In this document: one piece after another, positions 1 to 52,334 of the stretch | Layout: the number at the start of each line of letters is the position of its first letter | Numbering within the stretch: position 1 is the first letter of the stretch | IMG/VR virus record: IMGVR_UViG_3300049491_000673 | Location: 1-52,334 of that record | Reading direction: 5' to 3' (one strand) | DNA: 52,334 nt | Source: a virus | Notes under the pieces: model-generated | The model's input: the letters and a program-made list of their open reading frames with translations, nothing else | Told to the model about the DNA's origin: nothing | The model's database searches: none | Translations under genes and position numbers: made by a program

Positions 1-127
1 TCGTTTGCAGAGGTATGCAAACGATACTGGGCAGGACTGGAATGACGTGCGGACTCAGGCCAAGTACTTCCTACGCGAAGTCAATGGGCTTGAGGAGCCA
101 AAGGAGAAGAAGTATGGCGCTCAACTC
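1..127. repeat. Terminal overlap, left copy
   Basis: These bases are identical to 52208-52334. A gene reads through the join in frame, so this is the overlap of a circular contig rather than a duplicated locus. The length of 127 equals a common maximum assembler k-mer. It therefore says nothing about real terminal redundancy, only that the molecule is circular or circularly permuted in the reads. Confidence 0.95.
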
Positions 128-844
128 ATGGCTGCACAGAACGTGGATCAGGCTGCGCGAGCTAGCATCAGTCTTGCGCGGCCGGGAGGTTGGACTCCGA
201 ATAACCCCACCGCCGGTAACGGATACAAGCACACCTACGACGCCACGAAGCAGTTCGCAAAGGGCAATTACAAGGTCCCAACGCCGACTCAAAAGCTGAG
301 TGACACGGGCGCGAAATTCGACCCGAATGCTGCTGGTAAAGGATTCGATCTGACCACGATTGTGCCAAAAGCATCTGGTCAAAGTCCTGGTGCAGGCATG
401 GATTCACCGGACTACATACAAGGGCTGATTGAAAACGCCATTACGCCACAAGCAAAAAGGACGGGCAAGATTGCTGAAGGCGAAGTTGATCAAAGCCTTA
501 AGCCACTTGAATCCTTGCTCGTCGCAGGCACAGAGGCGGATCAAGTTGGCACATCCGAAGGAGATGCACCGATTCAGCCTGAGGATCCGACCATCAATTC
601 GAACCCAGATCGGCCGGGTGATTCAGGTTCATTGAATGGGACGGTGAGCAGAGATTTGTTTGACAGCGGCTCTCCCGCCTTGCAAATTTTCGCTGGAGTC
701 CTTTCTGCTTTGAGTCAAGGGTCTGCGGATGCAAAGAAAAAGAAGTCTAGCAGCCCGGACACTTCGATGTTCGACGCGGCCATGAACAGTGGAACCGCGC
801 GTGCTCCTTCAATAGCCCAGATCATGGCATCTATTCGAGTCTGA
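2..844 (+). CDS. Virion-associated lysozyme, C-terminal part (starts at 51984)
   Basis: Continuation of the gene that starts at 51984; the window begins inside it. The first about 80 residues here finish the lysozyme-like domain (TQAKYFLREVNG..., then RPGGWTPNNPTAGNGYKHTYDATKQFA, like the end of Phage_lysozyme2 domains). The rest is Gly/Ser/Pro/Asp-rich and probably disordered, ending with a small Ala/Gln/Ile segment (APSIAQIMASIRV) that could anchor it in the virion. An apparent start at base 5 is internal and should not be used. The stop at 842-844 lies 3 bases before the next gene. Confidence 0.75.
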   Translation, partial: RLQRYANDTGQDWNDVRTQAKYFLREVNGLEEPKEKKYGAQLMAAQNVDQAARASISLARPGGWTPNNPTAGNGYKHTYDATKQFAKGNYKVPTPTQKLSDTGAKFDPNAAGKGFDLTTIVPKASGQSPGAGMDSPDYIQGLIENAITPQAKRTGKIAEGEVDQSLKPLESLLVAGTEADQVGTSEGDAPIQPEDPTINSNPDRPGDSGSLNGTVSRDLFDSGSPALQIFAGVLSALSQGSADAKKKKSSSPDTSMFDAAMNSGTARAPSIAQIMASIRV

Positions 845-847
845 TCT

Positions 848-1441
848 ATGGCAGAGAAGGATGTGCTACTTAGGTTTAAGCGAGTCGGAGATTATACAGA
901 GGATCAACTCCTAAAGGACTTGCGTGATCTTAATGAAGAAGTTCAGCTTATCATTCGCAATGGTAATGGCGTTCCGATTCCCGGCCCTCCTGGCCCTGTT
1001 GGTCCTGCCGGTCCTGATGGGGAGCAGGGCCCTATTGGACTCCAGGGAGAGGATGGAGAACCCGGTCCTGCCGGAACAGATGGACTCTCCGCCTACGAGA
1101 CCGCTGTCCTATATGGATTCGAAGGGGGAGAGGTTGAGTGGCTCCTCTCGCTGCAAGCGGATAGCTCGTACGAGATTGCCGTCCGTCTCTATGGTTATAA
1201 CGGTACTTACGACCAATGGTACTATGAGTCTCGAAGTGTTCAAGACGATTGGGGATTCATCGCTGAAGATTATGGATTCCTATACGGCACTGTGCTGGAT
1301 TTCGAAGACTATGGTGGCCTCTTTGGACCAGTAGCGCCGTTGGAATTTGGAGTCAGTGGTGGGTACATCTTGAGTAGTGATCTGGCCTTCTTCCTTGTGC
1401 CGTCTGATTTCACGGCCTATGTAGCACACACAGGAACATAG
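848..1441 (+). CDS. Collagen-like tail fibre protein
   Basis: 197 aa. After a short helical N-terminus (residues 1-38) come Gly-X-Y triplets at about residues 42-78 (GPPGPVGPAGPDGEQGPIG and on), the collagen-like repeat used in trimeric phage fibres. A GLSAYETAVLYGFEGGEVEWLLSLQ motif follows, as commonly found after such repeats in fibre proteins. The C-terminal half is rich in Tyr, Phe, Gly and Asp. The gene starts three bases after the lysozyme stop with no clear Shine-Dalgarno, so translational coupling is likely. Fibre function is inferred from the repeat and from position; receptor contact is not shown. Confidence 0.75.
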   Translation: MAEKDVLLRFKRVGDYTEDQLLKDLRDLNEEVQLIIRNGNGVPIPGPPGPVGPAGPDGEQGPIGLQGEDGEPGPAGTDGLSAYETAVLYGFEGGEVEWLLSLQADSSYEIAVRLYGYNGTYDQWYYESRSVQDDWGFIAEDYGFLYGTVLDFEDYGGLFGPVAPLEFGVSGGYILSSDLAFFLVPSDFTAYVAHTGT

Positions 1442-1442
1442 T

Positions 1443-16921: not shown

Positions 16922-18337
16922 TTAGGCACTTTTTCGGAGTCTCTCTCCCAGCTCTCTGACGTAGTTAGCCAGTTTCGAAGCTCCTACGGAACCTCCCAAC
17001 CGAATCTTATGACCTTCGGATATCAGACGGTTCATCTCGACGAGCCGTTGGAATATCTTTGACGTGTCGTCAGAGTCGAATCCTGCTCTCCCCATAATAG
17101 CATACAGAGTATTGCGGCTGTCGTTGCCTGGCATTGATTCCAGGACTTCGCGGACGATGGCATAAGCACGTCCTTCGATGCTCTTGTCGAGTCCGACATA
17201 TGCACCATCCATGTCTATTTCAGCCAGCCCCAGAATGACGTGAGCGAGAGCAACGTCCCGGCGGTTAACAACGTAGGGTGAGTCGCCACGTAGCAGGCAG
17301 ACCAAGGCTGCGATGCGTGCAAGATGATCCGACCGTCTGGAGGCATAGGCATTGAGTCGAAACTCGAGGGTCGGGACGTTCCAATTGTAGAGGTACACGT
17401 ATTCTTGTTCCGCCTCCTCGGAAAACGTGATCTCTCCGATTCCATCTGTCATCATCCGTTTAAGAGCATCGAGTAACCGTTCTTGTACAACGGCCTCTGC
17501 TGGGGATTGCTCTGGCGGGATAGGAACTGAATCGCCTTCCGCCCCTGCGTAGACAAATATGATACGGGACAGTATGCCGTGAGTGTGAGAATCTCTAGGT
17601 AGGATGCTGGCGAGATTCCCAGGAGTAGTCGCACCGAGGAGATTGATAAGTGGCGAAGGTATTCGTATGTTCCCTGATTTAGTCTGATAGAAGATAGGTT
17701 CGTTGTCGAGTCCATCAGCAAAGAAATCAAGGAGTTCACGCGTTTGCGACGTGAGGAGTCGCCCCAGCTCTTTGCTAGCAAAAAATATAGAGGATGGTCT
17801 AGTGCCGTGCCGCCCCATATGTGTGAGCACTGAGTCGAAGGAAGTAGTCCCCAGTTCGTCGAGTGATCCAGGTACCATGCTTGTTCCCGAATCATCTCCT
17901 CTGTCACGATAATCATCTTGCCACCTCGCTTGCATTGCAGTCATGATTCCATGTCGTGCTCCGCCAGTGTCCGTCGGACCGTAGTTCAGACTCAGGCTAC
18001 GGGCAAACCGCTGCATGAAATTGATGGCTGAACTTTTCCTGACCGCCGGTCGTCCTATCAGGACGATTCCAAGGTTCAGCTTCTTCCGCCCAATGATGCC
18101 GCGCGAAAGATAGCCGCTGTTGGATGCCAACGCGGCTGTTAAGGAGATCAGACTCCACAGGTGATACTGTTTCGGACTCTCTGTGTGCTCGACCAGAGCT
18201 ATGTAATCTCGGACTGCGTACAGAGAGGCGTCGAAGATATCAAGCGCCTGCGGGCTGTCCCATAGATTCGCCCACAAGAGCTCCGAACCAATGATGGCGA
18301 GCTCTTTGGTCGATCGATTCGCTATAGGGGAGTGCAT
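16922..18337 (-). CDS. DUF3987/primase-helicase-like P-loop ATPase
   Basis: 471 aa. Residues 91-103 (IVLIGRPAVRKSS) form a P-loop-like motif (GxPxxxKSS) as seen in the DUF3987/YfjI group. These proteins occur in mobile elements and phages as primase- or helicase-associated ATPases. Further conserved-looking blocks are SSIFFASKELGRLL (Walker B-like strand plus sensor region) and SPLINLLGATTPGNL. The C-terminus has a winged-helix-like part (SRNTLYAIMGRAGFDSDDTSKIFQRLVEMNRLISEG). A replication helicase or ATPase role is inferred from its neighbours. The ATG start implies a 98-bp overlap with the upstream gene and has no Shine-Dalgarno; a TTG near residue 21, preceded by GGAG, is an alternative. 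Confidence 0.6.
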   Translation of the reverse strand: MHSPIANRSTKELAIIGSELLWANLWDSPQALDIFDASLYAVRDYIALVEHTESPKQYHLWSLISLTAALASNSGYLSRGIIGRKKLNLGIVLIGRPAVRKSSAINFMQRFARSLSLNYGPTDTGGARHGIMTAMQARWQDDYRDRGDDSGTSMVPGSLDELGTTSFDSVLTHMGRHGTRPSSIFFASKELGRLLTSQTRELLDFFADGLDNEPIFYQTKSGNIRIPSPLINLLGATTPGNLASILPRDSHTHGILSRIIFVYAGAEGDSVPIPPEQSPAEAVVQERLLDALKRMMTDGIGEITFSEEAEQEYVYLYNWNVPTLEFRLNAYASRRSDHLARIAALVCLLRGDSPYVVNRRDVALAHVILGLAEIDMDGAYVGLDKSIEGRAYAIVREVLESMPGNDSRNTLYAIMGRAGFDSDDTSKIFQRLVEMNRLISEGHKIRLGGSVGASKLANYVRELGERLRKSA

Positions 18338-19309: not shown

Positions 19310-19633
19310 CTATGAAATTTTGAATAAGTTATCCACAGCTTTTTGCATGCGATTCGGATCAGGGCTATTACATCGATTCTTATTCTGGTCAGCCATAGTA
19401 ACCCAGCGTAGATTGCCTGGTTGATAACCCTTGTCATTATTGATTCGGTCCAATGTGTAGTATCGTTTACCGAAGTTAGGAAGAGTCGAAACATATTCAT
19501 AAAACTTTTTTTCGCTAACTTGCCATGGAAAGTAAACGGTGATTCCACGTCCACCGTATCGATGAAATGCTGTATGCTTATGATTAGTACAACGTTGTAT
19601 CATATTTCTCCATGTGTAATACAATGGGGTCAT
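19310..19633 (-). CDS. HNH homing endonuclease (free-standing)
   Basis: 107 aa. YYTWRNMIQRCTNHKHTAFHRYGGRGITVYFPW followed by YTLDRINNDKGYQPGNLRWVTMADQNKNR is the signature of phage HNH endonucleases (conserved YGGRGI, LDRI(N/D)NDxGYxPGNxRW and the closing N). The ATG overlaps the polymerase stop (ATGA), so it is translationally coupled to the polymerase gene, a common site for homing genes. The region is AT-richer than its neighbours, as expected for transferred DNA, yet carries five GANTC sites in 324 bp. It is the same family as the gene at 31426. Confidence 0.85.
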   Translation of the reverse strand: MTPLYYTWRNMIQRCTNHKHTAFHRYGGRGITVYFPWQVSEKKFYEYVSTLPNFGKRYYTLDRINNDKGYQPGNLRWVTMADQNKNRCNSPDPNRMQKAVDNLFKIS

Positions 19634-21804
19634 GTTAGTACCCTTGCTTCCTTCTCTGCTTTGATTCTCTTGTATTCTGAATCAAACAGAGTCAGTGCCC
19701 TGCGTGGTAGCTTGTCCAAGAACGTCTGGCAGTCATCGGAGTTGAACACACGAGTCGACTCTTTCCCTGCCCAACGATAGCTGATCTCGGCTTCTGTGCC
19801 GACTCTGAATTCCTCACCTTTGCAGATGATCGGTCGAGTCATGACAGCAAAAATTCTACTAACACCTTCACGCCAGTTAGGGTTAGTATGACGGACGTTA
19901 AAGGTAAATGAGTCGTGCGTCTGTAGGCGCAGACTGACACCGTGATCACGCTCATTAACAACAAGAGTACGACTAGCTGAGTCACTAGCGTCGCCATCAC
20001 GGAACCTAGTCAATCGGATTCCAAATTGGAGTTCATCCATTGCCATATTAATTCGCCCTGCGGTGTTGGCTTGTCCAGAAGTCGCAGCCGCAGCACGGAG
20101 AGTTGAGTCTTCATGAGGATCAGAGAGGAATCGCTGGTAGTAACCAAAGATTGTAGATATGCCTCCAGTCCTAACGAGTTCTTCTGTGAGTTCATTGTAC
20201 CAACTATTGACTCCAGTTCTCTTAAATCGTGGGTAATGCGTTCTGAATTTCGTTTCAAGAGCCGCACAGAACTTAACAAGTCTGTCCTGATTCCAGATCC
20301 CAGCGTCCGCATTTCCAAGTTCCTTTGCAGCTGCGACGATTGCTTCCCGGCCGGCGGTCATGAGCAGAGTCAAACCTGCCATTAGATAGTGATTTCCATG
20401 CACTAGTTTTTTAGTGATCTGCCGTATCCCCGTGATTGGGTGGACAACACGTGGGTCAGAGTCTTTCTTACCTTGGACAAGGGAATCGTAGGTCCAGTTC
20501 GGAAAGAAAATAAGTGCGTTAGTGCAGTGAATATCACGGCCACTTCGAACGAGCTCAATTTTCTTAGGCTCTCCTGATTCGAATGCAATAAATACGTCAT
20601 CTGCCCCTGAGTAGTCAATGTCGAGGAGGAATGAATCCTCATCAGCTTCCATAAACTTTCGATAATCTTTTCGAATGTTTTGCGCGTTTCCTCCATGTCC
20701 GAGTGCTGACTTTCGACTCGATAATCGTGTAGTTGTTGTTCCAGTTCCATCGTAAGCCGTAAGAAAACGTCCGTCGAGAAATTGAATCCCCACGACATTC
20801 GATAATTGCTTAGCAGGTTCAATAGACTCGAGTATACCATTGGCGATTCGCCGGAAGATAGGATGGTCTGTACGCATAGCTCGGAGAGGAACAGCTCCAG
20901 TAGAGGCGTCTGCGATTTTGCTAACGTATTTTCCTTTGGCATTTCGCATCCTGACTCCGAGTAGTCCATAGATTAACTCCGATTTTTGAGGGGCCGATTG
21001 TGGATTGAATTCGGAATCAGCTACGAGGTATTGGCAGCGAGTCAAAGCAGCTTCTGCGGTCGCGCTCAGTTCCACGTCGAGTTCATCTATGGTGTCAAGG
21101 TTCGCCTTCATTCCTTTGGCTGACATGGCGAGTCCAGCTACACTTCGTGTATGCGCTCTGAACCAGTTCTGCCGCATCCTCTGATCGACCATCATCATGT
21201 CGATTAGAATCAGTACATTGCGAAGCGTGTATTCACAGTCGCTTAACGCATAGTCACAGTACTCAAGGAAATCATCGGACTTGCGACCGGCCTTCCAGAA
21301 TTGATAGTCATCGAGCAGAATTGAGGATATAAATCCGAGTCGTTTAGGTAGCTCTGGCCACTTTGCCCAGAACATCATCATGGAATCGTATGCAAAATTA
21401 GCCACAGGCAGAAGATAACGGAGATGCCACATAAGATCATATACATAGTTTTGGCCACAGAATGGAATCCCGCTTGCGTTGATCCTACGACATGCTTTGT
21501 AAATAGCATCAGAGTGAGATGGAGCTCCTGACTCAGCTGCCTTTCCCGTCTGAAATGGGAAGAGAAAAGATTCCATATAACCGTTCGGCATTAGCCCGGT
21601 GTAACCGTTGACAGTCATCACGAACGGATATGGAATCCTTTTTCTATTCTGTATTGGTGGTTTCTTGTACGGAATTGTCTCGATATCATTCGATATAAGC
21701 ACGGCTTGCATCAGCCGTTTCTCGGCTTTGATTGCATCGGAGTCAGTCCAAACGATAGTCCGCTTGGCCTTCGTGCTTTTCAACATGCTAGAAAGTGATT
21801 GCAT
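19630..21804 (-). CDS. DNA polymerase, family A, with 3'-5' exonuclease
   Basis: 724 aa. The proofreading domain shows NDIET (D40, E42), GQNYVYD (N119, D123) and YALSD (Y185, D189), i.e. the DEDDy set. Polymerase motifs: A is LLDIDYSGADD (D397), B is RQITKKLVHGNHYLMAG (R461, K465/K466) and C is LQTHDSFTF (H630, D631, S632). Motif C has HDS where E. coli Pol I has HDE, and motif A has SGAD where most have SQIE. The metal-binding aspartates are present, so it should be active as the replicative polymerase. Upstream lies a structured leader; downstream, a coupled homing endonuclease. Confidence 0.9.
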   Translation of the reverse strand: MQSLSSMLKSTKAKRTIVWTDSDAIKAEKRLMQAVLISNDIETIPYKKPPIQNRKRIPYPFVMTVNGYTGLMPNGYMESFLFPFQTGKAAESGAPSHSDAIYKACRRINASGIPFCGQNYVYDLMWHLRYLLPVANFAYDSMMMFWAKWPELPKRLGFISSILLDDYQFWKAGRKSDDFLEYCDYALSDCEYTLRNVLILIDMMMVDQRMRQNWFRAHTRSVAGLAMSAKGMKANLDTIDELDVELSATAEAALTRCQYLVADSEFNPQSAPQKSELIYGLLGVRMRNAKGKYVSKIADASTGAVPLRAMRTDHPIFRRIANGILESIEPAKQLSNVVGIQFLDGRFLTAYDGTGTTTTRLSSRKSALGHGGNAQNIRKDYRKFMEADEDSFLLDIDYSGADDVFIAFESGEPKKIELVRSGRDIHCTNALIFFPNWTYDSLVQGKKDSDPRVVHPITGIRQITKKLVHGNHYLMAGLTLLMTAGREAIVAAAKELGNADAGIWNQDRLVKFCAALETKFRTHYPRFKRTGVNSWYNELTEELVRTGGISTIFGYYQRFLSDPHEDSTLRAAAATSGQANTAGRINMAMDELQFGIRLTRFRDGDASDSASRTLVVNERDHGVSLRLQTHDSFTFNVRHTNPNWREGVSRIFAVMTRPIICKGEEFRVGTEAEISYRWAGKESTRVFNSDDCQTFLDKLPRRALTLFDSEYKRIKAEKEARVLT

Positions 21805-28529: not shown

Positions 28530-28541
28530 TGACAATGAATC

Positions 28542-32540: not shown

Positions 32541-34499
32541 TCAATCCTCTATTCTCGTGCGAACCTGTATCTTTAGCGGTCCGAGTCCTTCCATGCTGAT
32601 GGCCTGATACCGCTTGATCTTCTCGGCGAGATTCGCTCCGAAGATCTTCTGCTTGGACAAAGCGGATCTGATTCCGAAGTCCGTGTACAAAAACACCACG
32701 CGCTTGACCGCTCGCGTGACTGCCGTATAGAGCCACTCGCGACTCAACTGCGACTTCACAGAGTGATGCACGACGATGATGGCTGTGTCGAACTGGCTGC
32801 CTTGGCACTTGTGACACGTCGAGGCGTAGGCCAGCATCAGTGACTCAACTTGAGCTTTGCTGCTGAACACCCTGATGGCTCCAGTCTGGAACACGACGTG
32901 GACCTTGTGACTCGCAGCGCCACCACCGGCGGCATCTTTGTCCGCATCCTTATCCCCGGACAGATTGATTGACTCAATGTCCGGCAGATCGTCCACGGTG
33001 AAACGTGCGAAAGCATCGAGTCCAGACTGCGTGAACTTGCCGTCCGCGCCCTTGACGCCGCCCAGCCCGCCAGCACTGTTGAAGAAGTCCTCGATCTGAT
33101 TCTTCTTCGCCAACTGAACGTCCTTCTCCGGTCCGACGAGGGAATGATTCCCGTGCCAGCCCGGATGCTTCTCGATATGGACGATCTTGCCGACCATGCC
33201 GTTCGTGACTCGATCCTCGATGTCCGGGCTTTCATTCTTCGTAGCCATCACTCGATGACCGACTTCAAACTTCTTGATCGCCCGGCCAGCATCGATAATG
33301 ATTCGCGGGTTCTCATCCGTAGGCGGAACGATCAGATGAGAGAGTGCTTCGTTGATCCAGAACTGTTGGAGTCCGGCACCCGTCTTTTCCTCTTCGTACC
33401 CATTGCCCGCCGTGATGATTCGATCACGATATGGATCATAGACTGGAGGAGTCTCTGGATCGACCGAAGCGTGGACCTTGTAACCGCGAAGCGCATTCGC
33501 GATAGCAACCACTTGATGCCCAGCCTTATCTGGATTCGTATCCAGTTTGAAGCCGATCACTCGCCAATTGTGATTCGTTTGGCTATCGTCCATCTCGAAA
33601 GTATTGCCGGCGAGGATGCTGTGCGCCACTTCGATGATTCGATTGGCTGCCGGTTCCTTCTGACGATGGATGTGAGTCAGTTCGGCCACCGGCCACTGTG
33701 CCAGCGTGAACGCGAGGATGGAATATGAGGCGGTCGGAGTCAACTGATTCAGATCACCTATCATGAATATCTTCGTGCTGGGCTTGCAAGCATCCAGAAG
33801 CTGGTGCCAGAGTTCGAGGCCCACCATCGAGGATTCATCGATGACAATCACGTCGTGCATCAGCTTGTTCTGTGCATGACGCATCGGCATGAAGATCTGA
33901 CTCTCTTTGATCTGTCCGTTCTTCTGGACGATCTCGGTCTTGACCGGCGCGTATTCCAGCAAGCTGTGAATCGTCTTGCACGAAGGATGAAGCCATTCCG
34001 GCATGTTCTGCTTGATGACGTGAGTCGCCGTGCCCGTGAAGGCCACAAGCGCGATGTTCAGCCCCTGCTTGCCCGGCAGCATACGAACACGCTGCGGCTC
34101 GACTCCATACTCCTTGTCACCGTAGATCAGCTTCTGGAGAAAGAATCGAAGGCTCGTTGTTTTGCCGGAACCGGCCGCGCCGATCAAGCATCCGTATTGC
34201 TCAAACAGAAGCATCTTGATTGCTTCGATCTGACTCTCATCCAGCTGAATGTCTGGATTCACGAGCCGCGAATCCCGCTCGGACGGCAGGACGAAGGACT
34301 TACGCTTCGCCGCGCTCTCATCCGACTCCTCGTAGTAATCCTCTTCCTCGATCTCCGGCTGTGGCTGCGCGGTGACGATTCGAGTGGCGACGATATTTGC
34401 CTTCGTTTCCACATAGTCGCTGTCGCTGACTCTGGATTCAATGATAGCGCGCTTGGGCGTGTCGCCAAGCTTTTTGAACATTGCAGGATCGATACCCAT
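32541..34499 (-). CDS. SF1B DNA helicase (RecD2/Dda-like)
   Basis: 652 aa. Helicase motifs: I GAAGSGKTT (107-115), Ia LVAFTGTAT, II VIVIDESS (D221, E222), III GDLNQLTP (248-255) and VI REWLYTAVTRA near the C-terminus; SSKAQVESLMLAYASTCHKCQGSQFDTAIIV is the motif V region. The order fits 5'-3' SF1B helicases. Likely roles are strand opening for the polymerase or recombination. The first 11 residues (MGIDPAMFKKL) recur in the protein at 28542. Insert-like Gly/Asp/Lys-rich stretches occur near residues 475-560. Start after GAGAGGAATGAGTC. Confidence 0.85.
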   Translation of the reverse strand: MGIDPAMFKKLGDTPKRAIIESRVSDSDYVETKANIVATRIVTAQPQPEIEEEDYYEESDESAAKRKSFVLPSERDSRLVNPDIQLDESQIEAIKMLLFEQYGCLIGAAGSGKTTSLRFFLQKLIYGDKEYGVEPQRVRMLPGKQGLNIALVAFTGTATHVIKQNMPEWLHPSCKTIHSLLEYAPVKTEIVQKNGQIKESQIFMPMRHAQNKLMHDVIVIDESSMVGLELWHQLLDACKPSTKIFMIGDLNQLTPTASYSILAFTLAQWPVAELTHIHRQKEPAANRIIEVAHSILAGNTFEMDDSQTNHNWRVIGFKLDTNPDKAGHQVVAIANALRGYKVHASVDPETPPVYDPYRDRIITAGNGYEEEKTGAGLQQFWINEALSHLIVPPTDENPRIIIDAGRAIKKFEVGHRVMATKNESPDIEDRVTNGMVGKIVHIEKHPGWHGNHSLVGPEKDVQLAKKNQIEDFFNSAGGLGGVKGADGKFTQSGLDAFARFTVDDLPDIESINLSGDKDADKDAAGGGAASHKVHVVFQTGAIRVFSSKAQVESLMLAYASTCHKCQGSQFDTAIIVVHHSVKSQLSREWLYTAVTRAVKRVVFLYTDFGIRSALSKQKIFGANLAEKIKRYQAISMEGLGPLKIQVRTRIED

Positions 34500-34502
34500 G
34501 AC

Positions 34503-35876
34503 TCATTCCTCTCCCGGAATCTTCAACTCTGGCATGGCAACGCCACCACCCGAAGTGAATCGTTCTAACATTTGCATATTGAGTGAAAGTTTGCGAGGCT
34601 TTTTGACGGCCTTCTGTCCTTTGGACTCACGTGCCTTGGCTTCCATTTTCTCGATCTCTGCCATACGAGTCCGAAGAACTTCAGGAACCGCGTTGCCCGA
34701 AGTCAGATATTTGTTGTAAAGCTCTTTGGTCGCGGAGTCACCACGACGAACCTTCGTATTCCCGCCATGGTTCGCTTTGAGGCCCATCACATGCTTGAGT
34801 GACTCAACCCGCTTATCCGACCAACTAACTTCCATCGATTGATTAAGCGACTTAAGCAATGACTCCATATGATGAGTCTCTGCTTGAGTGGACTTCCGTT
34901 GGCCACGGCCTTCGAGGGCTTCATGAATCAAAGCCATCATAGCATTGCCACTAGTTCCAGTGGCGAACTTGCCAGCTGATTCCGCCTTCTCAAACTTGTT
35001 GATATAGGCATCCATATCACGGGTGCCCATACGACTCGAATTAGCCATGGCGATTGAATGCAAGGCTGCCGTGATAGTCGCGGCATTGCCTTCCGGCTTG
35101 TTTTTCATCTTGCGGATGCGGATGATCGAGTCAGATTCTAGCTTGGCTAGAAGGCTGTGGAAAGCGACGAAGGACCATTCAGCCTTGCGACGCAGAGTCA
35201 GAAAAGCTTCTTTCAATTCCGCTTCATAGACGGCAGAGCGCAGATTGTGAATCGCGTCCAGCCGCAGAAGGCATTCAAAACCACGTTGCGCGGCCTTAGC
35301 CTCCTCGATCTGAGTCGGAGCTTCGTTACTCACTACCTTCAGGATACGGATAGCCCTGTCGGCCGTGACTCCATCCTCGTCCGATGCCGTCAATATCTTG
35401 AACCAATTGTCCGGCAGATTGTTGAGTCCAACTTGAAACTCAATCAGGAATGCCAATTTGGCCATGCTATTCGTCGAGGTTTGAATCTCCCGAATAGGCA
35501 CGAGTGAGTCGAATAGCAACTTTCCGGCGAGATAGGCGAAAAGCATTTTCGGCCCAATAGCATCGGACTTCATGACTCGCACGAGCGTGCTGTGATCATG
35601 ATGCAAGCGGAAGCATGGTGCAGGGCGCGAGGATTGCGCCCAATGCTGGAGTCCGAACTTTTCGGACAGATCGTCCGCACTGGCGAACGGCGAGCGATCC
35701 TGCTCGATTCGCAGGCAACGCATGATTTCGGCATCAGCGATAGTGCCGATGACGACTCCGGTCAACGAACAATGGGTTTTGTCCCAGTGTTCCTTACGAA
35801 TCAGCTCCAAAGCTTCCTCGCGAATCTTTCCACCCAATTCGGGTAGTTCTGGCATTTGAGGCATTTGTATTGACAT
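34503..35876 (-). CDS. Unknown protein, 457 aa
   Basis: 457 aa with AAGGATTCAAGTT before the ATG. It is helical, with a short Met/Pro-rich N-terminus (MSIQMPQMPELPELGGK) and a Lys-rich C-terminus (KKPRKLSLNMQMLERF) that may bind nucleic acid. C37, H79 and C88 are not arranged as a known motif. The gene sits directly before the helicase (3-bp gap), so it may load or partner it. Family not recognised. Confidence 0.6.
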   Translation of the reverse strand: MSIQMPQMPELPELGGKIREEALELIRKEHWDKTHCSLTGVVIGTIADAEIMRCLRIEQDRSPFASADDLSEKFGLQHWAQSSRPAPCFRLHHDHSTLVRVMKSDAIGPKMLFAYLAGKLLFDSLVPIREIQTSTNSMAKLAFLIEFQVGLNNLPDNWFKILTASDEDGVTADRAIRILKVVSNEAPTQIEEAKAAQRGFECLLRLDAIHNLRSAVYEAELKEAFLTLRRKAEWSFVAFHSLLAKLESDSIIRIRKMKNKPEGNAATITAALHSIAMANSSRMGTRDMDAYINKFEKAESAGKFATGTSGNAMMALIHEALEGRGQRKSTQAETHHMESLLKSLNQSMEVSWSDKRVESLKHVMGLKANHGGNTKVRRGDSATKELYNKYLTSGNAVPEVLRTRMAEIEKMEAKARESKGQKAVKKPRKLSLNMQMLERFTSGGGVAMPELKIPGEE

Positions 35877-39349: not shown

Positions 39350-39379
39350 ATTGTAGTCGAAGAATAGAAGGTTTGTCAA
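39350..39379 (-). promoter_or_regulatory. Sigma70-type leftward early promoter
   Basis: On the minus strand TTGACA (39379-39374) and TACAAT (39355-39350) are separated by 18 bases. This is a near-consensus promoter 117 bases upstream of the first leftward ATG. The leader contains a dyad, TCGTT(N6)AACGA, at 39279-39294. Host RNA polymerase should start here, which fits the absence of a phage RNA polymerase gene. Confidence 0.75.
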
Positions 39380-39670: not shown

Positions 39671-39837
39671 TGTAACAAGAAAAAGGTGCGCGAGGGCTCT
39701 ATATATAAAGGGGATAAGGCCCTTATTAAAATGGTCATTGTCTATGTAAACAATACGTAAACCAGAACAATGACCGTTACACGAAGGCCCTTATACGAGT
39801 CTGCATGGGTGCATACGCGCACTTTTTTCTTGTTACA
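39671..39837. repeat. 167-bp element with 22-bp inverted ends
   Basis: The left arm 39671-39692 (TGTAACAAGAAAAA...TGCGCG) and the inverse of 39816-39837 agree at 21 of 22 positions. Inside, GGTCATTGT (39733-39741) and ACAATGACC (39767-39775) form a second inverted pair, and AAGGCCCTTAT occurs twice in direct orientation. A leftward promoter-like pair (TTGTTT-17-TTTAAT) spans 39753-39725. Candidates are a replication origin, a divergent control element or a MITE-like insertion; I see no target duplication. Confidence 0.7.
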
Positions 39838-40017: not shown

Positions 40018-40091
40018 CGAGTCCGCAGGCCATAGGATTGCCTCCTGATCGATGTTCCGCAAGCGTTCACGTTTGATCGAGTCCGCAGGCC
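40018..40091. repeat. Direct repeat pair CGAGTCCGCAGGCC
   Basis: Exact 14-bp copies at 40018-40031 and 40078-40091, 60 bp apart. The core GAGTCCGCA also occurs inside genes at about 40556 and 41465. Confidence 0.55.
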
Positions 40092-40147
40092 CAATGCGCG
40101 CCGATCGATCGAAGGCTGATCGAAAGGCGATCGACCGCCGAGACCGA

Positions 40148-40185
40148 AGGCCAGGACGAAAATTGATACGATTAGGCCAGGACGA
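40148..40185. repeat. Direct repeat pair AGGCCAGGACGA
   Basis: Exact 12-bp copies at 40148-40159 and 40174-40185, 26 bp apart and about 125-160 bp upstream of the first rightward gene. They are candidate activator or operator sites. Confidence 0.5.
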
Positions 40186-40308
40186 TTTGCGACATGGAAC
40201 CCGCAGATCACTTGACTTTCAGGCCCAAAACGCCGACACTTTTCTTGCGGGCGACGCACGCCCGGAAACAGGCCATTCAGGCCAATTGACTCAGAAGGAC
40301 TAACCACC

Positions 40309-41322
40309 ATGGCGAAACAGCCAAACAAGACCGACTCGACCGAAAGCACGGAAACCGGCAGCAATGCCGAACTCGACCAGATCGACCAGACCTTGCAGCA
40401 AGGCGAAGGCGAAGGCTCGACCGAAGGCGAAGGTTCGACCGACTCGACCACGCAGACCGCGCCCGTCTATTCCAATGGCACGACCGACGCCGCGATCATC
40501 GCGAGCGTGAAGAAGGCAATCGGCGGAACCAAGGAAGAAGTCCGCAAGGTGTTTGAGTCCGCAGCCGTAGCGCAACCGGCATTCGACGCCGCCGCCGCAA
40601 TCGCGAGGACCATCAATCTCCCCGTGAAACAGAACGACATTCCCGCAGGAATGCAGGCTGTTGTGGCTGTTGTGGGTGCTCGACTCACCAATGAGACCAC
40701 CAAGAAGAAAGACACAGCGATCCGCGCGCTTGTCATGTTCCCGCTTCCATCGTCCGACGCATTCATGGAGGACGAGAAAGGAATCCAGTGGGTACGCAAG
40801 CTGATCGAGAAGGAGGCCGCCCACGTTGCATTCCGCGCGCTACGCAACGCCGAAGGCCCCGAAGAACTGTTGCTTGCGGCCGAAGGAATGCCCGCCGATG
40901 TTTCGTCCTACGTCGAGCAGTACAACGCGGGCGATGGACTCGACACGACGACGTTTGATATCGTTTGGCCCGCCGTTCGCGAGCACATCAAGAGCAAGAG
41001 CCCGAAGCTTGTGGCGACGTTCAGCCCGAAGGCGGAAATGCTCAAAGGCATTCGTTCCAAGCAGTACGCCGAATCGACGCCGGAATTGCAGCCGCTGGAG
41101 AAGATCGACCTCTTTAACTACATCGCCAAACTCTGCATTTTCGTCGCCGACAACTACATTAACGAGGAGACCAAGCAGGCCGAGCCGCTCGATTCGACCG
41201 AGATTGCCGCTTGGATTGCCAACCGCGCAACCTACGTTCCCGCCGTGCGCGCCACGCCCGAAAAGGACTTTGGCGCTATCGCCGGACTCGACCTCAACAA
41301 TCTGTTGGGCAACATAGGCTGA
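40309..41322 (+). CDS. Abundant early protein of unknown function, 337 aa
   Basis: 337 aa; AGAAGG lies upstream of the ATG. Residues 1-50 are low-complexity Thr/Ser/Glu/Gly/Gln (STEGEGSTDSTTQ). An Ala-rich helical body follows, then LDLNNLLGNIG at the C-terminus. Third positions are strongly C/G (GCC GCC GCC GCA ATC GCG), unlike most leftward genes, which suggests high expression tuned to a GC-rich host. It is the first gene on the rightward arm and has a hairpin terminator after it. No family is recognised; a host-takeover or DNA-coating role is conceivable. Confidence 0.7.
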   Translation: MAKQPNKTDSTESTETGSNAELDQIDQTLQQGEGEGSTEGEGSTDSTTQTAPVYSNGTTDAAIIASVKKAIGGTKEEVRKVFESAAVAQPAFDAAAAIARTINLPVKQNDIPAGMQAVVAVVGARLTNETTKKKDTAIRALVMFPLPSSDAFMEDEKGIQWVRKLIEKEAAHVAFRALRNAEGPEELLLAAEGMPADVSSYVEQYNAGDGLDTTTFDIVWPAVREHIKSKSPKLVATFSPKAEMLKGIRSKQYAESTPELQPLEKIDLFNYIAKLCIFVADNYINEETKQAEPLDSTEIAAWIANRATYVPAVRATPEKDFGAIAGLDLNNLLGNIG

Positions 41323-41997: not shown

Positions 41998-42048
41998 TCT
42001 TTACTCTGATTCTACTTGATACAACTAGGAGTTGAGTCGCCCATAAAT

Positions 42049-42130: not shown

Positions 42131-42160
42131 CATGAAGTGCAAGGAAGTAAGGGAAGAAGA

Positions 42161-42208
42161 GTCCGAGCCACGGGTCTCGGACAAATAGAGTCGACCTAGT
42201 CGGTCGAC
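42161..42208 (+). repeat. Two tandem hairpins
   Basis: GTCCGAG (42161-42167) pairs with CTCGGAC (42176-42182). GTCGACC (42190-42196) pairs with GGTCGAC (42202-42208) around TAGTC. Both would form in rightward RNA upstream of the terminase genes. Confidence 0.55.
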
Positions 42209-42292
42209 AAAGACTAAAGGTCGAAGGAGGAGATCAAAGTCAGTGGTAGACCTTGGGACTCCTAATTGCTATGACGGGGGTATAAGCCCCCC

Positions 42293-42334
42293 ATTCTGGA
42301 CTGAGGTGGGCTGCATTAATATGACTCCCAGAAT
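42293..42334 (+). terminator. Terminator-like hairpin with T-rich tail
   Basis: ATTCTGG (42293-42299) pairs with CCAGAAT (42328-42334), followed by TTTTATATATA. The 28-base loop makes it weak. It would separate early transcripts from the late operon. Confidence 0.4.
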
Positions 42335-42418
42335 TTTTATATATAAAAAATTTATACCACTCCTATTCTCGTGAGTCAGTAGCAGGGCGTCCTCCTGAAT
42401 CAGAATGATGGTGTAGAA

Positions 42419-43195
42419 ATGGCCGGGCATCCCAACCGAGAAATTCAAGTTGATTCAGACCTCGAAGAGAACCTGAGTCAGATCATCGATGCTATGCCGA
42501 ATCTGGTCAAGGAGGCAGAGGAGAAGCAGCGACAGGAGCTGGATAAGGCAAAGCGGCCAGAGTTGACTCGAATCGCGCAGTTGATCTTGCAGATGGATGC
42601 AAGGGCGATTAGCAGCAGTGAGAGTCAGGAGATGGAGATCAAGAGTGAGTCGAGGAGGAAGTTGGCGGCGAGCCTCGGCTGCACGGCGGATGATCTGCAG
42701 TCAGTAGTGGATTCGTATGGAGAAGATCACTGGCAAGAGATGGTGCTGGAGGAGAGAGTCAGACACGGAATTGCCAGTACGGATATGCGGGACATCAGCT
42801 GGGACAGGCTGGAGTCAGCTACGCTGAAGAAGCTACTGCTGTTGGTGGATGCGAATAAAGTGGGAACGGTGCAAGAGTTATTGCAGATCGCGACCGCAGC
42901 CAACAAGGCGAATCGAGGGCAGCGATCCTCTTCGAGTCAAGGTGCTGGAGGGTTCAATGTACAGCAGAATAATGTCTATTTGCCTGGTAGTCCTGCTGAT
43001 GGTGTTCTGCCTGGAGGTAATCTCGGGAAGATTCATCTCAATCTGGGTCCTAGAGTCGTTCGACAGATAGAGGCGAGTCGGAATATTGATATGACGGGCG
43101 CTCCGGAGTTTGAGGGAAGGAAGCTGGATTCTATTGAGATGCTGGACCTTAAGCAAGTTCAACAGGCCATTACGGATGTGGAGACGCAGAAGTGA
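42419..43195 (+). CDS. Putative small terminase subunit
   Basis: 258 aa. It directly precedes the large terminase gene (GTGA overlap), the usual place of the small subunit that recognises phage DNA. N-terminal helices (LEENLSQIIDAMPNLVKEAEEKQRQELDKAKRPEL), a helical centre, then a Gly/Asn/Gln-rich linker (QGAGGFNVQQNNVYLPGSPADGVLPGG) and a short helical C-terminus that may contact the large subunit. The ATG has only a weak Shine-Dalgarno. The assignment is by position; the sequence motif is not diagnostic. Confidence 0.6.
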   Translation: MAGHPNREIQVDSDLEENLSQIIDAMPNLVKEAEEKQRQELDKAKRPELTRIAQLILQMDARAISSSESQEMEIKSESRRKLAASLGCTADDLQSVVDSYGEDHWQEMVLEERVRHGIASTDMRDISWDRLESATLKKLLLLVDANKVGTVQELLQIATAANKANRGQRSSSSQGAGGFNVQQNNVYLPGSPADGVLPGGNLGKIHLNLGPRVVRQIEASRNIDMTGAPEFEGRKLDSIEMLDLKQVQQAITDVETQK

Positions 43196-44736
43196 CTCAG
43201 GAAGTCACATTAAACAAGCATGAATTGCTAATGGCGATTCGTAAAGAGTGCGTCATGTTCTTGGCATTCTATCTTGGTGAGGAGTTGACTCTCACAGTTC
43301 CAGAGTTCCACATAGAAATTTGGGACGAGTTGCTGGAGATACTGGATCAGGTGAATCAACCTGACCAAGTGATCGGGCATTTGCAGAAGTTGTTTGCAGT
43401 GCCCAGAGAGCACAGTAAATCAACTCTAGCAAAGCTGGCTGTCATCTTATTCATGAGATACAGTCCATTTCGATTCACGATGTACGTGTCCAAAACGAAT
43501 ACGGTGGCCATGCAGGCCATCAAGGACATTATCATGTGGCTAAAGAGTCCACAAGAGCAGGAGTTGTATGGCCCAGTCACGATGGTGAAGAGTAATGAGA
43601 CAGAGTCCCTGTGGATTCTAATCATCTTCCTGGCAGATGGAAGGACACAGAAGCGGATCATTTTCAAAGCGATGGGTTCGAATCAACAGGTTCGTGGCAC
43701 CCTGATCGAAAACATGCGTCCTGAGTTAATTATTCTGGATGATATCGAGGACTTGGACACGGCTGATGATGGGATTCAGCAGAAGAAGCTGAATGAGTGG
43801 GTCATGGGCAGCTTGCTGAAGGCCAGCGCACGTCGCTCTGTGCGAGTGTTCGTCGGAAACATGATTCGAAGCACAACACTCTTGGCGAAGTTGAGTAAGG
43901 ATCCAGAGTGGAATCCAACAGTGTTCGGTGCTTTGGTGAAGGACAAGGTGACGGGCAAGCTGCAAGCACTGTGGGAAGGTCGATGGACAGTCGCTGCGTT
44001 GCTCAAGGATTATATGAGTTATCGTCGACTCGGACTTGGACATGTGTGGGAAGCAGAGATGATGAATCTTGCTGCTGACACGTTGTTAGCCATGAATCTG
44101 GATGGATCAGTGATTGTGCCAGACATAAATCCAGAGGAGTTGACAGCTGGATTCATTTGCCTTGATCCTGCATTCGGACAGAATTCGTGGAATGATGAGT
44201 CAGCGATTACAGTTCACGTGCGCAAACACGGAGTAGGGATACCTATTGTCTGCGATTCGAGGAAAGGGAGATGGACAGAGAGCCAAGTGTTCGACGAGAT
44301 GATGGCACTAAGCTATTACTGGAATCTGGCGACATGGACTATCGAAGCGGCGGCAGCCCAGAAACTCCTGATTCCACTCTTCCGACTCTTTTGCATCGAG
44401 AGAGGGATGCCACCCGACACCTTCACGATTCTCCCTATGACTGGTGGGCAGGAAGCGAAGAGCAGTAGAATCAATGCGTTCCGCCAATCCATCGCAAGTA
44501 AAAGTTACGGTTTGACAGAAAGCCAAATCGAACTCAAGCTAAGGCTGGAGGAATACTCTCCGGATACGAAAGTGCACGATGACTTGTGCGATTCAGGAGC
44601 TTTCGGTCCAATCGTATGGAACATGTACGGTCAGATGATCGAGAGTCAAGGCGTGCAGAGCATGGCTGGAAGGCTCATGCAAGTCAGGAATCAGAACACA
44701 ATGAATCTAGGAGAGCGCGATGTCTGTCTATTCTAA
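43192..44736 (+). CDS. Large terminase subunit (T7-like packaging motor)
   Basis: 514 aa, GTG start at 43192 with GGAGACGCAGAA upstream. The ATPase has Walker A VPREHSKST (70-78, the PRxxxKS form of T7-like terminases) and Walker B LIILDDIED (179-187). The nuclease has CLDPAFG (D325), WTIEAAAAQ (E385) and VHDDLCDSGAF (D463, D464). It pumps DNA into the prohead and cuts it. Its last 17 bases overlap the portal gene. The closest known packaging relatives should help predict the genome ends. Confidence 0.85.
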   Translation: MTQEVTLNKHELLMAIRKECVMFLAFYLGEELTLTVPEFHIEIWDELLEILDQVNQPDQVIGHLQKLFAVPREHSKSTLAKLAVILFMRYSPFRFTMYVSKTNTVAMQAIKDIIMWLKSPQEQELYGPVTMVKSNETESLWILIIFLADGRTQKRIIFKAMGSNQQVRGTLIENMRPELIILDDIEDLDTADDGIQQKKLNEWVMGSLLKASARRSVRVFVGNMIRSTTLLAKLSKDPEWNPTVFGALVKDKVTGKLQALWEGRWTVAALLKDYMSYRRLGLGHVWEAEMMNLAADTLLAMNLDGSVIVPDINPEELTAGFICLDPAFGQNSWNDESAITVHVRKHGVGIPIVCDSRKGRWTESQVFDEMMALSYYWNLATWTIEAAAAQKLLIPLFRLFCIERGMPPDTFTILPMTGGQEAKSSRINAFRQSIASKSYGLTESQIELKLRLEEYSPDTKVHDDLCDSGAFGPIVWNMYGQMIESQGVQSMAGRLMQVRNQNTMNLGERDVCLF

Positions 44737-48047: not shown

Positions 48048-48156
48048 AATTTCCCTAGCGTTGGAGTCAGACAAGAGTTACGTTCAATTGGTAAGTAAAT
48101 CCCTGCGAACCGGACCAAGGTCCACGATTCAAACGCGAAACGCAAAGGAGATTCAA

Positions 48157-49353
48157 ATGGCCGTTCGCGGAGTTTTTGCAAGTCACTCCGGTATCATCGG
48201 AGATCGAAGGGCGGATTTGTCCGCTCGAGTCCTCATGAACATGCCCGGCGGCTCTGCTCCGCTTCTGGCTCTTTCGTCCGGAATGCCGTCGTCGCCGGCG
48301 AATGACACGGCGTTCAGCTGGATCGAGGATTCGCATATCAGCGGCAATACCACGGTCGTCGGCACAGTCGGCTCGGGTGCGGTGACTGTTGTGGTTGCTG
48401 ATTCGAACATCTGGGTGCCCAACAGCATCATCATGAACCAGGCGACCGGCGAATACATGCTCGTGACTTCGGTCAACGGGAACAGCATCGGAATCCTTCG
48501 TGGCCTCGCCGGTACAACGGCAGCGGCTCTGACGAACGCCGATGCGCTTCAGTCAATCGGCTCTGGATTCGAAGAGGGCGGCGGAAAACCGACTCCTGTC
48601 AGCCAGCGCGGCGCCAGCATCACGAACTACGTCCAGATTTTCAAGAACGGCTGGGCGATCACCGGCACGGCGCAATCGATCGACTTCGTGACCGGCAGCC
48701 AGATGGCGATGAATCGCGAACAGGCGGCCGCCTATCACGCGGAGGACATCGAACGTGCGTTCTTCTGGGGCAAGAAGGATGTGCGGACCGTCAACAACAA
48801 GCAGTTCCGACTCACCAACGGCGTGCTCTCTCAGATCGCCAGCTACGGCGGACTCGTGTCGCCGGCGAACTACGGCGGTACTCCTGGTGCGATGGCTCTG
48901 GCTGGACTCCAGACCTTCATGCGGCAGATTTTCGACAAGCGCGTCAAGGGCTTGCCGAACGAGCGCATCGCGTTCTGTGGTTCGATCGTGCTGGAACTGA
49001 TTCAGAACATGGTGCTGAAAGACACCACGTATCAGATCACGGCCAACGAGAACAGCTACGGGATTCAGGTGACCACCCTGAACTTCTTCAACGGCCAGCT
49101 GAAGCTCGTGACTCATCCGCTGATGGTCGAAAACGCGACCTGGCAGCACGAGCTCTACGTCCTGCATCCCGGACTGATTCGAAAGCGGATCAAGCGCGAC
49201 TCGTGGTCGGAGGAGTTTTCGCCGCAGAAGCAGAACAACAACGGCATCGATGCGACCGAGGGCTATATCGCGATCGAACTGGGATTCGAGCTCAAGGGCG
49301 CCGCTTGCATGGGCATCATGCGGAACATCCAGACCGCGGTGAAGTCCTTCTAG
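48157..49353 (+). CDS. Major capsid protein (SU10/DUF5309-like, HK97 fold)
   Basis: 398 aa from the ATG at 48157, which follows AAAGGAGATTCAA, a very strong signal; a TTG further upstream is spurious. NYVQIFKNGWAITGTAQSIDFVTG, REQAAAYHAEDIERAFFWGKKDV and the C-terminal TEGYIAIELGFELKGAACMGIMRNI match the pattern of DUF5309 (SU10-type) capsid proteins. Codons are markedly C-ending, as expected for the most abundant protein. Hairpins flank it on both sides. Confidence 0.8.
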   Translation: MAVRGVFASHSGIIGDRRADLSARVLMNMPGGSAPLLALSSGMPSSPANDTAFSWIEDSHISGNTTVVGTVGSGAVTVVVADSNIWVPNSIIMNQATGEYMLVTSVNGNSIGILRGLAGTTAAALTNADALQSIGSGFEEGGGKPTPVSQRGASITNYVQIFKNGWAITGTAQSIDFVTGSQMAMNREQAAAYHAEDIERAFFWGKKDVRTVNNKQFRLTNGVLSQIASYGGLVSPANYGGTPGAMALAGLQTFMRQIFDKRVKGLPNERIAFCGSIVLELIQNMVLKDTTYQITANENSYGIQVTTLNFFNGQLKLVTHPLMVENATWQHELYVLHPGLIRKRIKRDSWSEEFSPQKQNNNGIDATEGYIAIELGFELKGAACMGIMRNIQTAVKSF

Positions 49354-51207: not shown

Positions 51208-51243
51208 ACGGGGACCAGCAACCGCCATGGTGCTGGTCCCCGT
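51208..51243 (+). terminator. Rho-independent-type terminator after the 136-aa gene
   Basis: ACGGGGACCAGCA (51208-51220) and TGCTGGTCCCCGT (51231-51243) form a perfect 13-bp stem followed by TTTGTG, the best terminator in the late operon. It would end most transcripts of the head genes before the lysis and tail genes. Confidence 0.7.
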
Positions 51244-51273
51244 TTGTGCATATGGGTGTGAAGGGGACTCACA

Positions 51274-51975
51274 ATGACTGGCCTGAATGTAGAGGAACTG
51301 AAAGTAACACAGCAGAAGCTGAAGGACGAAGGATTCGATCCTGGTGTGATCGATGGCCTGTGGGGCAGGAATACGTCCAGAGCAGTTCGTGCTTTTCAGT
51401 CGACTCAACATCTTGATCCCACGGGGATTCTAGACGAGCCTACGATGAAGGCACTCGGCCTTCAAAAGAAGATGAAGGCATTCGAGGTTGATCCTCCGTG
51501 GCTCGCGCTTGCACGGCAGAAGATGGGATTCCTTGAGAACGAGGAGCGGACCAAGGCGTTTCTAAAGGCCGATGGCAAGACACTCGGCGATCCGAGTCAG
51601 TTCCCATGGTGCGGAGATTTCATCGAGACGTGCTTTGGGCTCACGCTGCGGGATGAGATTCTTCCTGTGAATCCATATTATGCCCTGAATTGGCTCAAGT
51701 GGGGTCAAGGGCTCACAGAGCCTGCATTGGGCTGTGTGGGAGTCAAGAAGCGATTCCAGAACAAGGTGCTGGTTGGTGGCCATGTGTTCTTCGTGGTCGG
51801 TCAGACGCAGTTGAACATATTTGCTCTCGGAGGGAATCAGAGCAATCGCGTCAGCATCGTGACCATCAGCAAGAATGTTGTCGAGGGTTATCGCTGGCCT
51901 TCGACTCAGCCGCTGCCCCCTCCGATGGGCATCAGCCCTCCAGGCAGCTTTGCACGCGGTGGTAGTGAGGCATAG
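51274..51975 (+). CDS. Endolysin: peptidoglycan-binding domain plus CHAP/NlpC-like (TIGR02594) amidase
   Basis: 233 aa; GAAGGGGACTCACA precedes the ATG. Residues 5-62 (VTQQKLKDEGFDPGVIDGLWGRNTSRAVRAFQ...LDEPTMKALG) are a PG_binding_1 domain. Residues 75-205 are a TIGR02594/CHAP-type cysteine peptidase: PWCGDFIETC (C113), GGHVFFVVG (H170) and GGNQSN (N188). No signal peptide is visible, so export would need a holin (candidate at 16691). It degrades cell-wall peptides at lysis. Confidence 0.8.
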   Translation: MTGLNVEELKVTQQKLKDEGFDPGVIDGLWGRNTSRAVRAFQSTQHLDPTGILDEPTMKALGLQKKMKAFEVDPPWLALARQKMGFLENEERTKAFLKADGKTLGDPSQFPWCGDFIETCFGLTLRDEILPVNPYYALNWLKWGQGLTEPALGCVGVKKRFQNKVLVGGHVFFVVGQTQLNIFALGGNQSNRVSIVTISKNVVEGYRWPSTQPLPPPMGISPPGSFARGGSEA

Positions 51976-51983
51976 AGGGAATC

Positions 51984-52334
51984 ATGTCTTTCAAATCCAG
52001 CCCAGGGAACATTCCTATCGTGCGTGAGATTCTCATGCGCGGTGATCCGGAGCGTGGAATCAAAGGTTTGAGAGGGTTCGCGTTGGCTGGAGCACTGGCC
52101 AGGGTGAAGTCTGAATCACAGTTCGATCCAAAGGCGGTTCGGCTGAATGATGCTGGGCCGGGAAAGCATAGCCGTGGCTTGCTTCAGTGGAATCGTTCGC
52201 GCTTGGCTCGTTTGCAGAGGTATGCAAACGATACTGGGCAGGACTGGAATGACGTGCGGACTCAGGCCAAGTACTTCCTACGCGAAGTCAATGGGCTTGA
52301 GGAGCCAAAGGAGAAGAAGTATGGCGCTCAACTC
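51984..52334 (+). CDS. Virion-associated lysozyme, N-terminal part (continues at base 2)
   Basis: ATG at 51984 follows AGAGGGAATC. The frame is open through the circular join and ends at 844 in the first copy, giving 355 aa in total. The start reads MSFKSSPGNIPIVREILMRG. The segment ALARVKSESQFDP...SRGLLQWNRSRLARLQRYA resembles the Phage_lysozyme2 (PF18013-like) fold, in which a glutamate in the first helix (here E of KSESQF) and a GxxQW motif are typical. The likely role is local cleavage of peptidoglycan from the virion during DNA entry. It lies directly downstream of the endolysin gene and upstream of fibre genes, consistent with a tail-tip enzyme. The family assignment is by eye. Confidence 0.7.
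   Translation, partial: MSFKSSPGNIPIVREILMRGDPERGIKGLRGFALAGALARVKSESQFDPKAVRLNDAGPGKHSRGLLQWNRSRLARLQRYANDTGQDWNDVRTQAKYFLREVNGLEEPKEKKYGAQL
52208..52334. repeat. Terminal overlap, right copy
   Basis: Exact copy of bases 1-127. Removing one copy gives a 52,207-bp circle. Confidence 0.95.

Follow-up and report, generated by a model that had tools for sequence, protein, structure and literature searches.

Phages normally lose short palindromes, and GANTC is the target of CcrM. Why, then, does a phage genome carry this palindrome everywhere? The question is raised by record IMGVR_UViG_3300049491_000673, which was analysed over its full 52,334 bp (the window, W0 below) together with its IMG/VR relatives (G001-G010). 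Our results revealed that in this group of phages nearly every synonymously possible GANTC position is filled unless another site lies within ~37 bp, the spacings of 22-25 bp being partly exempt, and that spacings above 38 bp favour multiples of ~13.6 bp. We suggest, with a probability of roughly 0.4, that the sites position a phased, near-continuous nucleoprotein array (phage 'chromatin') on the genome. The element in question is:

1..52334, no strand: genome-wide GANTC array of 898 sites (one per 58 bp), spread uniformly over genes of both strands and non-coding DNA

GANTC excess in the window and its relatives

An earlier note on this DNA had claimed, from hand counts in a few segments, a genome-wide excess of GANTC in genes of both strands and in non-coding DNA. 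Its counts were exact for 1-1500 (22), 15121-15720 (11), 24001-24600 (9) and 41893-42418 (10), and in non-coding 39234-40308, where it gave about 17, we counted 18. The excess itself was larger than claimed: 898 sites were observed against 203 expected from base composition (4.42-fold the mononucleotide expectation), and every full 2-kb block contained 21-41 of them. Markov models gave expectations of 330 (first order, dinucleotide), 363 (second order, trinucleotide) and 649 (third order, tetranucleotide), the last being inflated because GANT and ANTC are themselves raised by the GANTC sites. In 41 genes, 716 sites stood against 279±13 in synonymous-codon shuffles that kept protein and codon usage (z = 34.6). 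The earlier note had proposed comparison with codon- and dinucleotide-preserving shuffles and with other palindromes. The excess was specific to GANTC: among words of the form XYnZW it reached 2.72-fold its dinucleotide product, and the runner-up 1.34-fold. CTNAG and GTNAC, which had looked near expectation in 1-1500, were below expectation over the whole window (0.57- and 0.62-fold). Composition, codon usage and Markov effects were rejected as the cause, as they explained neither the count nor the spacing.

The four bases were nearly equal at the central position (202-239 each) and the flanks were only weakly biased; the unit is therefore the bare GANTC palindrome. A longer motif or a partner motif was rejected for the same weak flank bias, and no other word was clearly position-linked to GANTC.

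Repeating the count in related phages, as had also been proposed, showed that the excess is shared by nine relatives (3.6- to 4.8-fold), which have ~50-66% identity to W0 in core proteins: 4.2-fold in G001, 4.5 in G002, 4.6 in G003, 3.6 in G005, 4.7 in G006, 4.2 in G007, 4.8 in G008 (a 20-kb contig), 4.1 in G009 (a 14-kb contig) and 4.3 in G010. When all gapped and ungapped words were scanned in each genome, GANTC had the top z score in every rich genome; in W0, too, no scanned word was more strongly over-represented. TCGA was also ~2- to 2.7-fold enriched in all rich genomes but was randomly spaced (coefficient of variation, CV, ~1), while TATA, TTAA and CTAG were low throughout.

Spacing of the sites

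The GANTC intervals of W0 had a mean of 58 bp and a standard deviation of 28.5 bp, where a random process would give ~58 bp. Their CV was 0.49; drawing sites at random from the synonymously possible GANTC positions gave 0.90±0.03. In most rich genomes the spacing CV of GANTC was the lowest among the scanned words. We pooled ~10,000 synonymously possible positions from eight genomes, 49% of which were used, and calculated the realised fraction, that is, the share of such positions that are GANTC, by distance to the nearest other site. It was 0.21 at 1-9 bp, 0.27 at 10-19 bp and 0.25 at 20-21 bp, spiked to 0.60 at 22-25 bp, and was 0.26 at 30-33 bp and 0.24 at 34-36 bp. It then rose to 0.55 at 37-39 bp, 0.76 at 40-42 bp and 0.95 at 53-56 bp, and stood at 0.94-0.96 from 66 bp up. 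Both the 24-bp spike and the 30-36-bp trough were present in each of two genome sets. The low level is close to that of codon shuffling (by our estimate ~0.2), indicating that close sites are redundant rather than harmful.

Furthermore, where one neighbour was 28-36 bp away, use climbed from 0.16 to 0.5-0.8 with a widening far-side gap, and the fit was better for a coverage model, with ±28 bp served by every site, than for pure exclusion with equal parameters (log-likelihood -4642 vs -4751). Both results indicate gap filling: the genome is being covered. Between W0 and the rich relatives, only 15-18% of sites were at homologous positions (~2% expected by chance), so that the spacing rule persists through the turnover of sites, and inherited positions were rejected as the source of the spacing peaks.

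The earlier note had also proposed a test for spacing periodicity. The ratio of realised to available pairs peaked near 14, 24, 41, 54, 67, 77, 92 and 108 bp and dipped near 19, 34, 45, 61, 73, 88, 98 and 114 bp, resembling a cosine of ~13.4 bp with maxima at whole multiples. When spacings of 38-120 bp were fitted with the short-range terms apart, the best period was 13.6 bp in both genome sets, with log-likelihood gains of 10.7 and 7.9 and crest offsets of 12.1 and 13.0 bp, the same near-zero phase. The spectral power was 15.1; none of 226 Gibbs simulations run under a smooth interaction exceeded 7.5. Helical phasing of 10.5 bp was not favoured by the spacing data, and a lattice in absolute coordinates was rejected, as the order decays within ~120 bp.

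These distances bear on the proposal that the phage acts as a sponge, titrating a host GANTC-binding factor (CcrM, GcrA or other) and so disturbing the host cell cycle. Too-close sites could not be occupied at once and would add nothing to a sponge, in keeping with a near-maximal site number under ~37-bp exclusion, and the near-complete rich genomes do carry ~680-900 sites each. However, the benefit of a site depends on its far-side gap, coverage beats exclusion by 109 log units, and a sponge gives no reason for a 13.6-bp period. We therefore hold this proposal to be improbable.

Selection for and against GANTC

The closest outgroup, G004 (41-43% identity in polymerase and 52% in head protein), avoided GANTC almost totally (0.36-fold), as did the Caulobacter phage Kuura (0.31-fold) and the Roseobacter phage CRP-810 (0.49-fold). 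More distant relatives ranged from 0.05- to 2-fold with near-random spacing; the extreme was L068, with 3 sites in 15.8 kb (0.05-fold). In the two reading frames where GANTC is avoidable, 0-3% of the chances were realised in G004, Kuura and CRP-810, against 33-51% in the rich phages. In the frame in which GANTC reads as [DE]S, the rich phages realised 77-90%. These opposite fractions indicate that GANTC is under strong selection both ways. In the rich phages [DE]S dipeptides (encoding GAN-TCN) were raised up to about two-fold, at 3.5-5.4 per kb vs 2.5 in G004, with S[DE] at 2.3-3.2 per kb; the proteins thus yield to the GANTC code. The density was the same in non-coding and coding DNA, 16-20 per kb in rich phages and 0.3 in G004. 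An evenly spaced array of another palindrome was found neither in the other fetched loci nor in G004 or Pseudomonas phage 119X, and phages Tiera and EPV3 had no GANTC array. In G004 (L027-L029) we also noted zero GTAC in 43.5 kb.

Could the sites arise neutrally, through biased mutation or repair, or else from composition and codon usage? The equal excess in coding and non-coding DNA would suit such an origin. It is contradicted, however, by the even spacing, the neutral level near existing sites, the changed dipeptides, the exempt promoter described below and the opposite behaviour of the sister lineage. Because GANTC use depends on distance, a neutral bias is excluded unless the mutator senses the nearest site, and we consider it barely credible.

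The earlier note had also suggested that the phage copies a host bias. This is unlikely if the host is alphaproteobacterial, because GANTC is at least 2-fold under-represented in alphaproteobacterial genomes, where it is relatively concentrated in intergenic regions (PMC3973325), and because G004, Kuura and CRP-810 avoid it. TCGA and CTAG behave in Kuura as in the rich genomes; the resemblance of W0 to Kuura in TCGA enrichment and CTAG depletion is no more than suggestive of an alphaproteobacterial host. A search of 84,980 species genomes with head-protein and polymerase profiles found no relative and no host.

Another proposal is a methylation code, in which a host CcrM-type enzyme would mark the sites, the dense and regular marks would protect the phage DNA against a host nuclease or allow methyl-specific host proteins of GcrA type to work along it, and the exempt promoter would be methylation-independent. 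All four central bases are used and the flanks hardly matter, as for CcrM, and the almost total avoidance in relatives suggests that to these hosts the word is a charged signal. Other alphaproteobacterial phages are also known to carry cell-cycle regulators, for example the GcrA homologue that one account mentions in phiCbK (PMC7987155). On the other hand, the code would depend on a GANTC methyltransferase supplied by the host: the earlier observation that no methyltransferase gene is seen holds for PF01555 (N6/N4), which was absent from W0 and its relatives (ten records; other methyltransferase families were not searched exhaustively, and a host enzyme is possible). Furthermore, a methyl mark alone gives no account of why sites at 30-36 bp are useless, those at 22-25 bp useful and the longer spacings quantised. 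Such a code is conceivable but rather unlikely.

In G005 the genes of the 457-amino-acid (457-aa) and 337-aa families (L030 10808-12118 and L031 54-908) realised only 12-13% of possible GANTC and are probably recent imports, which suggests that sites accumulate little by little and that no single one is vital. These genes may be useful for timing the gain of GANTC. They also bear on a self/non-self nuclease, of the phage or of the host, which would attack GANTC-free stretches, spare the dense-site phage DNA and degrade a site-poor host chromosome. This scheme agrees with the selection for coverage, which extends to gaps of ~100 bp, and phage nucleases are present, but we know of no nuclease of this GANTC-density type. 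Alphaproteobacterial chromosomes are GANTC-poor, as it would demand (PMC3973325); however, the imported site-poor genes persist in G005, and we give the scheme little chance.

GANTC-free intervals, the promoter and the 337-aa gene

The largest gap of W0 and its surroundings hold these features:

40079..40288, plus strand: largest GANTC-free interval of W0, 209 bp long; the 337-aa gene starts 21 bp past its end
40212..40241, plus strand: sigma70-like promoter TTGACT-17-GACACT, predicted from the sequence, inside the GANTC-free interval
40309..41322, plus strand: 337-aa protein without assigned function, conserved in all rich genomes except the 14-kb fragment
39350..39379, minus strand: leftward promoter-like site TTGACA-18-TACAAT, embedded in the array, with GATTC at 39337-39341 adjoining the expected start

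Among the ~700-900 gaps of each genome, the one upstream of the 337-aa gene ranked 1, 1, 3, 4, 4, 3 and 2 in W0, G001, G002, G005, G006, G007 and G010, i.e. among the four largest in 7 of 9 genomes (W0 and 6 of the 8 relatives tested). In G005 it measured 383 bp, in a patch with few sites overall; in the other six it was 196-218 bp long. In G003 the upstream gap ranked 33, and a 186-bp gap instead covered a promoter match of 12/12 that precedes an extra gene. Within the GANTC-free intervals a sigma70-like promoter is predicted ~70-100 bp before the start codon of the 337-aa gene; in the relatives it was recognised by scan in G002 (TTGACA-16-CATACT) and by reading the sequence in G006 and G010. 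One strong predicted promoter is thus kept GANTC-free over ~200 bp. At the leftward site the expected start carries GATTC; promoters would therefore differ in being either exempt or embedded.

The 337-aa protein would stand behind the exempt promoter and is our leading candidate for the reader of the array, although we rate its chance as low. Its structure model (predicted local distance difference test, pLDDT, of 70) gave weak matches to phage single-stranded-DNA-binding proteins (E ~1). The model of a 331-aa protein was too poor for use (pLDDT 52), and PDB profile searches with the queries A5-A7 found nothing credible. A type IV CRISPR-like identity for the 331-, 457- and 337-aa proteins was a resemblance by eye that no search supported, and was dropped.

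Four relatives (G002, G003, G006 and G007), but not W0, share a second recurrent GANTC-free stretch, 318-402 bp long, located at the same place towards the 3' end of their primase genes. It leaves 6-11 synonymous chances unused, its synonymous codons are not unusually conserved, and it is perhaps an origin. It bears on a replication or recombination signal, required within each ~100 bp and read by the primase/helicase or, in the manner of Chi, by the RecD-like helicase and the PD-(D/E)XK nuclease. The clade encodes such enzymes, which in W0 are:

16922..18337, minus strand: primase/helicase-like protein (DUF3987)
32541..34499, minus strand: RecD/Dda-like helicase
27513..28535, minus strand: PD-(D/E)XK (RecB/Cas4-like) nuclease

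The unused chances in several primase genes would agree with such a signal. However, homologues of these enzymes also occur in G004, Tiera and EPV3, which are GANTC-poor or neutral, and priming or Chi sites could do with a far lower density and need no 24-bp or 13.6-bp rules. The orientation bias of Chi was not seen either: GANTC is self-complementary apart from its free centre, and its density is uniform over both gene orientations. A signal of this kind is accordingly a poor explanation of the array.

A proposed phage chromatin

The earlier note had also offered the reading that GANTC is a distributed signal, and this fits best, because the sites are selected for spacing and coverage. The spacing code, the contrary behaviour of the sister lineage and the exempt promoter go beyond what that note had noticed. 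In the phage-chromatin reading that we favour, the sites would be anchors for a sequence-specific DNA-binding protein, either phage-encoded or a captured host factor. One bound unit would take ~37-56 bp per site and serve ~56 bp, two units could dock cooperatively at 24 bp, and neighbouring units would have to lie in register on a helical lattice of ~13.6 bp. Such an array may compact, label or shield the phage DNA against nucleases or host silencers, each site adding a small benefit. It would repress the promoters inside it, while the exempt promoter would keep the 337-aa protein, a candidate array protein, expressed. Overall, GANTC may be a second genome-wide positional code laid over the genes, with ~37-bp redundancy, 24-bp docking and ~13.6-bp register and with enough force to shift codon choice and dipeptides, which positions phage chromatin except at one or two early promoters; we put this somewhat short of an even chance.

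Several observations weigh against phage chromatin. The 13.6-bp period is not resolved in W0 alone (best 8.8 bp), and in single genomes it varies from ~12 to 15 bp. The promoter gap is missing from G008 (rank 108), and the imported site-poor patches of ~2 kb in G005 show that coverage is not essential everywhere. No GANTC-binding protein was identified in the phages examined. In the 337-aa protein neither a DNA-binding domain nor a significant fold match was recognised, and GANTC-poor G004 has a remote homologue of it. No gene common to all rich genomes and missing from G004 was found: profile searches matched remote G004 homologues of most candidates for a rich-exclusive gene, including the 75-, 135- and 337-aa families, and the 331-aa family, which G004 lacks, was missing or weakly matched in rich G001 and G010. 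To our knowledge, p6, the coating protein of phage phi29 discussed below, is not known to use a short palindrome.

What matters here is that about ten divergent phages maximise GANTC under a precise distance rule while their sister avoids it to the full extent that its proteins allow, so that both the fitness effect of a site and the geometry of its reader are legible from sequence alone. The values of 24, ~37, ~56 and ~13.6 bp provide testable numbers for a system, so far undescribed, that organises DNA or marks it as self. Should a GANTC-binding protein of the phage exist, the array would be viral chromatin programmed by sequence; should a host factor read the sites, the array would illustrate how phages turn an epigenetic signal from a liability into an asset.

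Other features of the phage

By gene content (TerL, head protein, polymerase A, primase/helicase, RecD-like helicase and PD-(D/E)XK nuclease) W0 is an uncultured tailed phage. Its remaining annotated features are:

43192..44736, plus strand: terminase large subunit (TerL)
48061..49353, plus strand: major head protein
19630..21804, minus strand: DNA polymerase A family
34503..35876, minus strand: 457-aa protein without assigned function; the G005 copy is GANTC-poor and probably a recent import
39671..39837, no strand: nested inverted repeat, non-coding, arms 39671-39692/39816-39837 and 39714-39741/39767-39794

The TerL has ~25% identity to those of the Fredfastierviridae phage 119X and of phages Tiera and EPV3. 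These three phages have recognisable counterparts of the TerL, head protein, polymerase, primase, nuclease and helicase of W0, and the GenBank phages searched included no near relative. A 96-aa protein (30414-30704) is 66% identical to its G001 counterpart, where most genes shared with G001 have ~30-55%, pointing to a possible recent exchange.

The nested inverted repeat, with 22-nt arms 95% and 28-nt arms 79% complementary, has few GANTC and overlaps a 153-bp gap (39644-39797); it is possibly an origin or packaging element. At 41880-41982, AAGTATAGTTT is at the centre of four 40-nt register copies that succeed one another by 21 bp, and inverted repeats overlap there. At 42049-42130, just before the terminase region, CCCCAAAAATTCGTTCAATTTTTT forms a perfect, terminator-like inverted repeat of 24 bp around a 34-nt loop.

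Comparison with known systems

Our literature search, incomplete in coverage, found no GANTC-enriched phages and no evenly spaced phage palindromes, and as far as we found, no virus genome has been described that carries throughout a palindrome array coded by distance. HIP1 (GCGATCGC) of cyanobacteria is, like GANTC in W0, a short palindrome far above chance. However, it is a longer word in cellular genomes and its density is lower, whereas W0 is a phage with one site per 58 bp and a spacing code. HIP1 has been tied to orphan methyltransferase sites, its function being debated, in a paper that does not mention phages, GANTC or spacing (PMC4390886). W0 shares the over-represented palindrome but, by PF01555, shows no cognate orphan methyltransferase in the same genome.

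The p6 protein of phi29 coats phage DNA with a contact every 12 bp (monomer), 24 bp per dimer and 63 bp per turn, and tells viral DNA apart by superhelicity (PMC10899789). The scales are comparable (12/24/63 vs 13.6/24/56 bp), a parallel of scale only. The W0 clade shows a sequence periodicity and a spacing rule, which may reflect regular binding along the genome. Neither PHROGs nor Pfam gave the name p6 to any protein tested, no direct comparison with p6 having been made. Where p6 uses superhelicity, W0 carries a short palindrome throughout the genome.

The CcrM/GcrA system of Alphaproteobacteria uses the same word; however, the host genomes under-represent GANTC, while W0 maximises it everywhere. 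Restriction-site avoidance is likewise strong selection on a short palindrome, but in W0 it has the opposite sign (4.4-fold enriched), G004 being the depleted counterpart at 0.36-fold.

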